NCBI GenBank assembly: GCA_945900785.1
Contig: CAMDJM010000014.1
Location: forward strand, 1 to 64,000
Direction of reading: 5' to 3'
Origin: Akkermansia muciniphila
Lineage (GTDB): Bacteria > Verrucomicrobiota > Verrucomicrobiia > Verrucomicrobiales > V1-33
Length of the DNA stretch: 64,000 nt
Below are positions 27,949 to 52,191 of this stretch, one piece after another. How positions within the stretch are numbered: the stretch's first letter is position 1; the number at the start of each line of letters is the position of its first letter. Below the pieces are notes generated by a model, which was not told where the DNA came from, made no database searches, and saw nothing but the letters and a program-made list of their open reading frames with translations. Made by a program: the position numbers and the translations under genes.

Positions 27949-27981
27949 ACTGGAGGGGCTATTCGCGGGATGCTGAATAAA

Positions 27982-28082
27982 TTAATTCTACTTTGTTAAG
28001 TTCCCCGTGGCGCAGGCTTCCAGCCTGTGCGGCCAGCGGGCTTCCAGCCCGCTGATTCCCCAACTTAACAAAGTAGAATTAA
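27982..28082 (+). repeat. Palindromic element copy A (complete)
   Basis: 101 bp element bounded by perfect 21 bp inverted arms at 27982-28002 and 28062-28082. Inside are two hairpins: GCGCAGGCT-TCC-AGCCTGTGC (9 pairs, one G-T) and AGCGGGCT-TCC-AGCCCGCT (8 pairs). It shares nearly its whole length with copies at 34508-34602 and, inverted, 52018-52110. It has no coding capacity, so it resembles a MITE or REP-like element. It sits between the aquaporin stop and the DUF1460 gene. Confidence 0.9.
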
Positions 28083-34507: not shown

Positions 34508-34602
34508 AATTCTACCTTGTTGACTTCCCCGTGGCGCAGGCTTCCAGCCGGTGCGGCCAGCGGGCTTCCAGCCCGCTGATTCCCCGACTTAACAAAGTAG
34601 AA
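34508..34602 (+). repeat. Palindromic element copy B (diverged arms)
   Basis: Same orientation and internal layout as copy A, with both TCC-loop hairpins retained. Its 5-prime arm (from 34508, CTACCTTGTTGACTT) no longer pairs fully with the 3-prime arm (GACTTAACAAAGTAG), so this copy is decaying. It lies between the convergent gntK and LamG genes. Confidence 0.85.
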
Positions 34603-34719: not shown

Positions 34720-34791
34720 CAGCGGGCTGGAAGCTCACTGGCCCCGCACCGGCTGGAAGCCTGCGCCACGGAGAAGCTTACAAGGAGAATT
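34720..34791 (-). repeat. Truncated inverted copy of the palindromic element (B2)
   Basis: Reverse-orientation remnant lacking one terminal arm. It shares the variant AGCCGGTGCGG with copy B but not with A or C, so it probably arose by a local inverted duplication. It begins within the stop codon of the LamG gene, meaning the 3-prime end of that gene abuts the element. Confidence 0.75.
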
Positions 34792-37204
34792 ACCGTCTCA
34801 GACGGTAGAACCGTTTGGTGACATTCTGTGGCAGGGTGGTAACGTAGGGACTGCTGGGATTTCCCGCGACATCCGTCCATTGACTCATATTGCCTGATTC
34901 CTGAAGGGTGCCGCTGCCCGTCCATGACAAGGTGACCTGCGAACCGGCAACGACTGGTTTATTGATGGTTCCCAGAGAGACATTCGAAACTGGGGCATAG
35001 GCGGACAGGAATTGGCCAGGGATGGGCTGCAGGGAGCCGGGGGCGGTGCCATCGTTGGCCGCGCGCCAGGCGACTTCCATGTAGTCGCCCCCCCCGCCTT
35101 CCTTGTAGATGCCTTCGAAAAAGTATCTTTGACCAGCCACCAGGGGAATGGGTTGGGACGAGAGGGAGCCACCCAGGGTGAAACCATTGCAACAACCGGG
35201 CTGCGCCGCGATCTGCGCGAGGTTCTCCGGACTCTCATCGGTGCTGACAGAGAAGACGGAGGCGTCATCGCTGCGGATGAAGAAGGTATAATCGGAGGTC
35301 TGGGTAGGCGTGATCCAGCCATACATGCGCGCTCCATAAAATTCGCCCAATCTGGCGTTATTGATGGGGTTGATCATGTTAAAGTCAGGGTGGGTGCTCA
35401 GGTCAAAGTTGAGGGTCAGCGTCATGGTGCTGAACCGGTTCAGGATGCGGTGGGTCCACGGGCCATCCGGGTATTGGTAATTGTTCGTCAGGCCGGAGAC
35501 GACACTGCCCGGGGTGTTGCGGTAGTAGTCCCAGGCAATGGCACCCTGGGTCAGCACATAGGATTTGAAGCTGGTCAGGTTCGGGCCGATGAGATTCTGT
35601 GAGACCCGGGCATCCCTTACTCCGGTAATGCTCAAGGTGTAGTCCTGGCCTGGCAGCATCCCGTCGGTCGTGACGTTGATGACGGAAGGATCGTCCGTGG
35701 GGAATACGCCAGTTGTGATCAGTCCACCACTGAAGGTATAGGAGCTGGTATCCACGATGGTGTCGGCGGACATGGGTTTATTGAAGCCGATGCGCACCCG
35801 GTTCAGGGTAGGAGTGCCCGTGACATAGGTGACCGTCGGGGGAACCGTATCCGGAGCCACCGTGATGGTGGTTCCTTCGCTGTCGAGATTGGTGAGGGGG
35901 TTGGAAATGGACAGAACGTAGACGCCTGCATCAGTATCCGTGAGGCCATGAATCACCAGGGTGGTTCCGGTGACACCCTGCGGGTATTTTCTGCTGCCAT
36001 CCAGGTTGGTGTCCGTGGCACTGAGCGGATTGCCGTCCTTCAGCCATTGGAAAGTGTTGGGGAATCCGGTTACGTTGGCGGTGAGGGTGACGTCGTTTTC
36101 CTCCAGACTATTCACCGTCGCGGGCGGGGGCGTGGTAATGGTCGGGGCAAAGTAAGTGATGGAGAAATGATTCTCCACCTGTTCCGGGGAGAGTTCGTAA
36201 TTGTAGTAAGCCACTTCATCCACGGCACCGGCATATGGCAGTGCTCCGCCAAAGCGGCTGCCGATTTCGAGGCCTTGGGCTTCATTGTTGCGGAAGGGCA
36301 GGACAAAGGTGGTGGAGCGCTGTTTGAATCCGTTCACATAAAGGCTGGCAACACCGGGGTCCCCGCCGTCCCAGGTGACTACAATGTGATCCCATCGGCC
36401 TGCGACGATGGGAGTGCTGCCATTGAGAGCGACAAAACTGCCGCCAGCGCCCAACTGCACGTCCCAGAAGTTTCCACCGGTGCCCTGATAGATCACGTAG
36501 CCGGCCCGCCCGGCGTTCCGGTTTTGGGTGGAGAGCACTGCTTTCCCGGTATTGGCGGCGAGATCAGGCTTGACCCAGCATTCCACGGAGAAAGGCCCGG
36601 CGGAATTGACATTGGGCGTGAAGGGCACGCTGGCGGAGATGCCATCCGTGGTGGCTTTAAAGCGGGTCGCGGTGTCAGGAGCAAGGCCTTTGGGGCCGGT
36701 AATGCCGCGTTCGATCCGGGTGGTGTTCATGGTGCCGTTGTGGCCGCCTGCAACATCGGTGAAGACGGAGCCTGTCGATTCACTCAGACGCCAGTAAGCG
36801 GTAGGACCGTCGGCCAGCACCTTGGCGGCGTAGAGGTCGGGAGCGGGGAGGTTGCTGAAATTCACCGTGAACGGATTACTGGTCACGGAACCGGTCGGAT
36901 CGCTGACCGTGACGGTATAGCTTCCGGAATTGGCCGTGGTGGTATTGCGCAGCGCCAAGGCGGCGGTCGTCGCGGAATCATTGCCGGCTACCGGGTCGCC
37001 ATTCCGGTTCCATTGGTAGGTGATGGGTGCCGTTCCTGTGGCCTTGACCCGGTAAATGGGAGCCCCCCCGGCATACAAATTGGCAGTTCCAGTGGGGGCG
37101 GAAGTGATGGTCGGAGCAGCCAAACAGGGCAGTGCTGCAAGGAAGGTGATTGACAGCACCAGTGCTTTGGTCGGGAGGGGAGTGGCTGAGTGAAACAGTT
37201 TCAT
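34790..37204 (-). CDS. Secreted Ig-LamG-Ig-PA14 protein
   Basis: 804-residue exported protein. A signal peptide ends near CLAA (about residue 27). Domains in order by eye: Ig-like (28-115, with YRVKATGTAPITYQWNRNGD), LamG/concanavalin-like (120-325), second Ig-like (330-425), an SbsA/Big_5-like domain with LNRVRIGFNKPMS (425-525), PA14 (about 530-740, with MYGWITPTQTSDYTFFIRSD and KEGGGGDYMEVAW), and a C-terminal module ending KRFYRLRR. LamG and PA14 domains bind carbohydrates, so adhesion or polysaccharide capture is likely. The layout matches the last 770 residues of the protein at 55509-59672. The start was placed at the ATG before KLFHSATPL. A terminator separates it from the upstream gene. 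Confidence 0.85.
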   Translation of the reverse strand: MKLFHSATPLPTKALVLSITFLAALPCLAAPTITSAPTGTANLYAGGAPIYRVKATGTAPITYQWNRNGDPVAGNDSATTAALALRNTTTANSGSYTVTVSDPTGSVTSNPFTVNFSNLPAPDLYAAKVLADGPTAYWRLSESTGSVFTDVAGGHNGTMNTTRIERGITGPKGLAPDTATRFKATTDGISASVPFTPNVNSAGPFSVECWVKPDLAANTGKAVLSTQNRNAGRAGYVIYQGTGGNFWDVQLGAGGSFVALNGSTPIVAGRWDHIVVTWDGGDPGVASLYVNGFKQRSTTFVLPFRNNEAQGLEIGSRFGGALPYAGAVDEVAYYNYELSPEQVENHFSITYFAPTITTPPPATVNSLEENDVTLTANVTGFPNTFQWLKDGNPLSATDTNLDGSRKYPQGVTGTTLVIHGLTDTDAGVYVLSISNPLTNLDSEGTTITVAPDTVPPTVTYVTGTPTLNRVRIGFNKPMSADTIVDTSSYTFSGGLITTGVFPTDDPSVINVTTDGMLPGQDYTLSITGVRDARVSQNLIGPNLTSFKSYVLTQGAIAWDYYRNTPGSVVSGLTNNYQYPDGPWTHRILNRFSTMTLTLNFDLSTHPDFNMINPINNARLGEFYGARMYGWITPTQTSDYTFFIRSDDASVFSVSTDESPENLAQIAAQPGCCNGFTLGGSLSSQPIPLVAGQRYFFEGIYKEGGGGDYMEVAWRAANDGTAPGSLQPIPGQFLSAYAPVSNVSLGTINKPVVAGSQVTLSWTGSGTLQESGNMSQWTDVAGNPSSPYVTTLPQNVTKRFYRLRR

Positions 37205-51399: not shown

Positions 51400-51993
51400 T
51401 TATTTCCGCCGCTTTTCGGAGACTTTGGCGGACATTTCCATGAAGGCACCGGCGGTGCCGGCTTCGTTGCAGACGAAGTTCAGGGCGTCGGCGGCGTCGA
51501 TGCGGAGGGCGCTGGCGGTGGCGATGGCGTCCTGGTTGGCGGCGAGGAAGACGAATTGCCAGGCGAGTTCCTTTTTGGCTTCGATGAGGTCGGCGATGTG
51601 GGCGGCGGTGTATTCGCGGCTGCTGTTTTCCTCACCGTCGGTGAGGATGGCGATGATGATGTGGGAAGGCTTTTTCTCTGCGGGACGGGCAGTGAAGGAG
51701 CGGGTCATTTTGGAGAGGGTGCGGCCGATGGCATCGCGCAGGGCGGTGTTGCCGCGGGGCACGAAGGTGGTGCTGGTGAGAGCGGGGACTTCGGTCAAGG
51801 GGATGGATTTGTAAGGGACTTCGTATTCGTTATCGAAAAGGATGAGGGTGAGGTGGGTGTGCGCGGCTCCCGGCTCGCGGCGCTGGGATTCAAGGAAGGC
51901 ATTGAAGCCGCCAATGGCGTCGTTGGCGATGGATTGCATGGAGCCGGAGCGGTCGAGGATGACGGCGATTTCGGTGGGTGGGGTGGGGGTCAT
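51400..51993 (-). CDS. von Willebrand factor type A domain protein
   Basis: 197-residue protein consisting almost wholly of one vWA domain. The metal-ion-dependent adhesion site is complete: DRSGS at 14-18, the NTALRDAI threonine in the middle, and LTDGEEN later. No signal peptide or membrane helix is present, so it is probably cytoplasmic. Bacterial vWA proteins often work with AAA+ ATPases or other partners, none of which is adjacent. It is divergently transcribed from the WYL regulator across 311 bp that hold palindromic element C and a putative operator. Function is unknown. Confidence 0.85.
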   Translation of the reverse strand: MTPTPPTEIAVILDRSGSMQSIANDAIGGFNAFLESQRREPGAAHTHLTLILFDNEYEVPYKSIPLTEVPALTSTTFVPRGNTALRDAIGRTLSKMTRSFTARPAEKKPSHIIIAILTDGEENSSREYTAAHIADLIEAKKELAWQFVFLAANQDAIATASALRIDAADALNFVCNEAGTAGAFMEMSAKVSEKRRK

Positions 51994-52017
51994 GGGTTAT
52001 TGGTTTCTGGTTATTAG

Positions 52018-52110
52018 TTCTACTTGGTTGAGTTGGGGAATCAGCGGGCTGGAAGCCCGCTGGCCCCACAGGCTGGAAGCCTGCGCCACGGGGAACTCAA
52101 CAAAGTAGAA
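52018..52110 (-). repeat. Palindromic element copy C (inverted orientation)
   Basis: Reverse-orientation copy of element A, near-identical along its length. Both TCC-loop hairpins are present. Its arms carry GTTGAGTT/AACTCAAC where A has GTTAAGTT/AACTTAAC, a paired change that keeps the stem. It lies between the divergent vWA and WYL genes, 24 bp from the vWA start. Confidence 0.88.
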
Positions 52111-52191
52111 TTAGTTATTGATTATTGGGCGGGTGCGGGCTGTGGGGGATGGCGTGGCGGCTTGGCGGGATCGAAAGGAATTAAAATTTGC

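Follow-up and report, generated by a model that had tools for sequence, protein, structure and literature searches.

The 93-bp element that recurs in the window (the whole 64,000-nucleotide stretch of an Akkermansia muciniphila contig analysed here) is a MITE, very probably one whose ends are of the IS701 family and whose interior is a captured REP. This assignment is based on the ends and target signature of the IS701 family, a REP-like core and the existence of a longer version, of 160 bp, that bears a REPIN. The element is short and non-coding, has terminal inverted repeats (17-bp arms) and is dispersed in about 30 copies, the features by which MITEs are recognised. MITEs, REPs and REPINs are known, and passages of a study of Pseudomonas note composites of a REP and a stem-loop around RAYT genes (PMC3733652). 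In the open-access papers searched, we found none that describes IS701 ends enclosing a REP or REPIN.

Copies A, B and C of the window (Table 1) share one plan, in which a 17-bp arm, TTCTACTTTGTTAAGTT, is followed by CCCC, a 48-bp core, ATTCCCC and the complementary arm. The core consists of a GTGG head and two hairpins. Folding of the three copies is far more stable than that of dinucleotide shuffles (z of -11.0, -5.4 and -7.6 for A, B and C, respectively), and the arm and hairpin motifs occur in the window above chance. One end of copy C lies about 25 bp upstream of the start codon (ATG) of a minus-strand frame (51400-51993), and individual copies may affect neighbouring genes. An earlier note on this DNA had reported three elements at these places, each built of long terminal arms and a pair of internal hairpins, all of which we confirm; its range for copy A, 27982-28082, is exactly the 93-bp element plus 4 bp of duplicated target on each side. 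Its prediction of many further copies in the genome was also borne out. The source genome (G000) is a draft that is 86% complete, with 5.08 Mb in 172 contigs. It contains about 30 near-complete 93-bp copies with 92-100% identity, besides many partial or decayed ones and related longer ones.

Table 1. Features of the 93-bp element copies in the window
Feature	Position	Strand	Remarks
Copy A, 93-bp element	27986..28078	+	
Target duplication of copy A, 5' side	27982..27985	.	TTAA
Target duplication of copy A, 3' side	28079..28082	.	TTAA
Left terminal arm of copy A	27986..28002	+	TTCTACTTTGTTAAGTT, IS701-type tip
REP-like core of copy A	28007..28054	+	GTGG head and two GC-rich hairpins
Right terminal arm of copy A	28062..28078	-	inverted repeat of the left arm
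Copy B	34510..34602	+	flanks CTAA / CCAA, a duplication with one difference
REP-like core of copy B	34531..34578	+	
Copy D, decayed and truncated	34720..34792	-	core and one arm; absent from the list of the earlier note
Copy C	52018..52110	-	carries the one two-sided arm change
Target duplications of copy C	52014..52017 and 52111..52114	.	CTAA on the minus strand
REP-like core of copy C	52042..52089	-	

The long element was found in G000 only, with no copy in 36 relatives or in 384 sampled genomes of the class, and none in the plasmids and phages searched. The exact core pattern had no match in genome and viral contigs, and a shorter core retrieved one genome contig. Placement within G000 is mostly intergenic: a frame of at least 250 codons would cross the empty site in 8 of 28 copies, as against 85% of random window positions.

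The flanks of the element carry the signature of transposition. Identical 4-bp flanks are found in 19/28 copies, compared with a mean of 5.6 in shuffles, none of which reached 19 in 5000 trials; in the other nine copies the two flanks are not identical. Targets conform to NTAN, mostly YTAR, with a nearly invariant central TA. With YTAR as target, insertion often falls on a TAA or TAG triplet, in some cases apparently a stop codon. Copy A (27979-27985) and two copies elsewhere in the genome (L025, L020) start directly at or after the end of a gene, apparently at its stop codon. An empty site is available for one copy (L003, contig C18), which lies inside a dispersed repeat, and it is provided by two paralogous sites within G000 rather than by another strain: the repeat is uninterrupted at C13:50031-50244 and at C6:86724-86945. 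These repeat copies span the junction free of gaps at 93% and 91% identity, respectively, and read TTTG where the filled site has TTAA. Their continuity across the junction indicates that the insertion at L003 added the element plus 4 bp. Empty sites were also sought in other species, in which no sequence spanned a junction.

The source of these ends is indicated by the tips of the element, TTCTACTTTGTTAA, which match insertion sequences of the IS701 family. Members of the IS701 family insert at YTAR targets and generate 4-bp duplications there. A search with the tips retrieved, besides the elements themselves, many places about 130-180 bp from the ends of G000 contigs, and these contig ends (L102-L121) run into at least two kinds of multi-copy IS701-type elements that fragment the assembly. 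Their tips are TTCTRCTKTGKTRA followed by NTA, or TTCTGCTTTGGTAA, TTCTGCTTTGGTGA and TTCTACTGTGTTAT, each likewise followed by NTA. The C-terminal coding part present at one contig end matches proteins of the relatives G003, G004 and G026; the full-length protein of G003 is recognised by the IS701 transposase model NF033540 with 300 bits (cut-off 150) and by Pfam DDE_5. Complete IS701 copies of about 1.5 kb are found in G026 and G003, for instance TTAA-TTCTACTTAGTTAA...TTAACTAAGTAGAA-TTAA, whose tip equals that of the 93-bp element at 13/14 positions. Agreement between IS701 tips and the element is 11-13 of the first 14 bases overall. Three complete copies (L124, L125, L129) have TTAA or ATAA on both sides. 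None of the IS701 elements observed has arms identical to the 17-bp arm, the best agreement being 15/17, in G026. No complete IS701 element or transposase gene was found in the G000 draft, in which the family is present as ends of 100-170 bp at contig borders; the autonomous partner is thus documented by these ends and by relatives, and mobilisation of the MITE in trans is what we infer. At two loci IS701 copies and 93-bp elements are in direct contact: in L108 (C85, about 20906) an IS701 copy is inserted into the TTAA of an element's arm, and in L107 (C32, about 47850) one adjoins half an element.

The 93-bp element thus resembles IS701-family members (NF033540; Pfam DDE_5) in tip sequence, 4-bp NTAN duplication and inverted ends, and differs from them in its length of 93 bp versus about 1.5 kb, in the lack of a transposase gene and in the presence of a REP.

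The interior of the element has a different affiliation. REPs are recognised by a head of the form GT(A/G)G next to a palindrome rich in GC, and by a RAYT gene that has inverted copies on either side (PMC2817692), and passages of PMC3733652 report GTGG heads in the verrucomicrobium Opitutus terrae. The core has both the head and the palindrome of a REP, GTGG being followed by CGCAGGC-TTCC-AGCCTGTG, and in both G000 (C20) and G002 (C43) a Y1_Tnp gene that encodes the HUH motif PNHVH is flanked on either side by inverted cores. It is on account of this head, the GC-rich palindrome and the RAYT between inverted copies that the core is assigned as REP-like; this cautious name was chosen because about 60-80 core units are present in all, most of them inside these elements, which is below the usual abundance of REPs (>100). 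Cores also occur without arms in G000, singly and as inverted pairs, and the core is present in G002, of the same genus.

Two other Y1_Tnp genes of G000 are associated with repeats. One (L031, C7, locus positions 1-546) adjoins a 68-bp tandem array containing the palindrome CCTGGGGTTTCAACCCCAGG, which in L080 and L094 also borders lone cores. The other lies in L036 (C37, locus positions 971-1437 and 2207-2280) amid inverted-pair repeats, CGTAGCYCGACTTTCCAAAGTCGRG, that apparently form a separate REP family.

The 93-bp element holds one REP unit and is therefore not a REPIN, whereas its 160-bp relatives hold two. About ten such 'type 2' elements (L220-L237, L078, L086 and others) have arms CTCTACTTTGTCA...TGACAAAGTAGAG around a whole REPIN made of two inverted double-hairpin units. 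Armless REPINs are found at L092 and L095, and L070 is a hybrid with one arm of each type. The simplest order runs from a bare REPIN to a REPIN in IS701-type ends and then to the 93-bp element, so that the 160-bp elements would be older than the 93-bp element.

We privilege the following scenario for an IS701-type MITE with a REP as cargo. A REPIN would have become enclosed between IS701-type ends, giving the 160-bp elements, and a shorter derivative with a single REP unit and more symmetrical arms would then have spread recently to its present copies, mostly between genes. A DDE transposase of the IS701 family, which the multi-copy IS701 of G000 would provide in trans, would recognise the TTCTACTTTGTT... 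tips and insert the element at YTAR-type targets with duplication of 4 bp. The cargo, devoid of a transposase gene, would be the REP-like double hairpin with GTGG head, like those flanking a G000 RAYT gene. Movement by the IS701 transposase, use of the core as a substrate by the RAYT and the succession of these steps are inferred.

An alternative, which we consider improbable, is that the whole 93-bp unit is an ordinary REP or REPIN moved by a RAYT through single-stranded intermediates, its arms being the outer part of the hairpin. The REP-like core, the presence of RAYT genes and the cores flanking one of them would fit this view. It does not account for the 4-bp duplications, which transposition of the IS200/IS605 type does not leave (PMC8944449), nor for the match of the arms to IS701 tips. 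Moreover, a distant core is found in 12 other genomes of the class, where it is often arranged in inverted, REPIN-like doublets; no IS701 arms accompany it in the loci examined. The comparison with described REP/REPIN-RAYT systems (PMC2817692, PMC3116915) is of the same kind: the GTGG head, the GC-rich palindromes, the inverted pairs and the RAYT between inverted copies are shared, while the element differs in being one REP unit in IS701-type arms, with target duplications and with few copies outside elements. The REP and stem-loop composites at the RAYT (TIRYT) genes of Pseudomonas putida and P. fluorescens (PMC3733652) are also similar in joining a degenerate REP to an unrelated inverted sequence and in having many dispersed copies; in the passages concerned they are defined as RAYT-flanking repeats and are assigned neither an IS family nor a target duplication.

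The nearly invariant TA at the centre of the target first raised the suspicion that the MITE belonged to a different DDE family, for example IS630/Tc1, which duplicates TA, as is the case for RUP and Correia elements. This candidate was rejected, and we hold such an origin to be very unlikely, since the two outer flank positions also agree, in 25/28 copies each versus 14.9 and 13.0 in shuffles, which makes the duplication one of 4 bp and not of a 2-bp TA. In addition, no DDE_3 (IS630) protein is found in G000 (no match at E 0.001), and elements with the same tips carry IS701 transposases. RUP and Correia, which are IS630-related, nevertheless resemble the IS701-type MITE in size, terminal inverted repeats, target duplication and intergenic spread in one lineage; they depend on a transposase in trans, as the 93-bp element would. 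The latter differs from them by its 4-bp rather than TA duplication, its IS701-type tips and its internal REP.

Variation of the arms bears on the idea of a conserved fold. The earlier note had read the arms as covarying, and had concluded either to selection for the folded form or to a mechanism that rebuilds both arms. The change in copy C from GTTAAGTT/AACTTAAC to GTTGAGTT/AACTCAAC is real and affects both arms. Among 28 aligned copies it is the only two-sided change against 46 one-sided ones, and the substitution is found on a single arm in other copies. Dealing the 3' letters randomly among copies yields a mean of 1.3 compensated pairs. One-sided changes dominate and compensated pairs are at the level of chance, so the arms give no sign of compensatory evolution, and the other copies lend no support to either conclusion drawn from covariation. 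Two of the observations that the earlier note had named as contrary to its reading, restriction to the copies of the window and lack of empty sites, were not made; the third, lack of further covariation in the arms, was. Its proposal of 'MITE or REP/REPIN' holds in both its terms and not as a choice between them, the outer part being a MITE (target duplication, empty site, IS ends) and the inner part REP-like and linked to RAYTs.

Variable columns are more frequent in the arms (24/34) than in the core (13/48; p 0.0001) in the 28-copy alignment. All core variants are singletons, and several arm variants, on either arm, are common to multiple copies; the higher variability of the arm columns thus comes partly from variants shared by several copies. 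Sequence exchange between arms was considered, since a variant may sit on the left arm in one copy and on the right arm in another; it is not significant (p 0.11-0.15). A structured RNA or regulatory element under selection on its fold, for which mobility would be unneeded, is suggested by the strong folding, the intergenic copies and the less variable core columns, yet it is scarcely credible given the chance level of compensatory changes in the arms, the lack of any known RNA family of Rfam matching at the element site, the detection of the long element in just one of the genomes searched, with no conservation seen between species, and a placement that is explained by the target duplications and the empty site.

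Y1_Tnp genes of the RAYT type were also observed inside essential genes. In G000 a RAYT is encoded in frame and without stops inside carB (C20:40915-41454, L212), where it is flanked by inverted cores of the window type, inside leuS (C12:19787-20341, L210) and inside alaS (C13:43859-44155, L211). The other parts of these three hosts are full length. The carB frame of 1356 aa matches residues 1-478 and 487-1069 of E. coli CarB, whose residues 479-486 are replaced by a stretch of 268 residues that includes the RAYT. In leuS the insert is 227 residues long and falls between positions 364 and 369 of Thermus LeuRS. RAYTs in open frames at recurring places are likewise seen in related genomes of the order (L190-L209, L213-L217), at the same place of carB in G002 and G006 and at the same place of leuS in G011, G213, G217, G419, G434 and others. 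Further hosts in relatives are clpB, metH, ispG, restriction enzymes and glycosyltransferases, some of them named from sequence only. In-frame REPs inside genes are described in passages of PMC3733652, and a survey of such transposases discarded unexpectedly long proteins, which it ascribed to gene fusions or annotation errors (PMC6006769). We found no earlier account of RAYT guests lying in frame within essential genes in the open-access papers searched.

These gene arrangements lead to a tentative and somewhat doubtful proposal, that the REPs of this lineage could be spread by two unrelated engines: RAYTs that would persist in frame in essential genes, and a DDE transposase that would disperse REPs packaged in IS701-type ends. 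If true, RAYTs in essential genes would be hard to lose without harm to the host, and the in-frame guests would represent an intein-like strategy without splicing. The presence of RAYTs in essential enzymes makes the persistence of RAYTs as single-copy genes directly testable. The 93-bp element itself suggests that two unrelated transposition systems, the DDE type of IS701 and the hairpin-acting HUH type of RAYTs, are brought together in a single element, and that REPs can thereby be dispersed with no transposase of their own. This would caution against equating REP copy number with RAYT activity.
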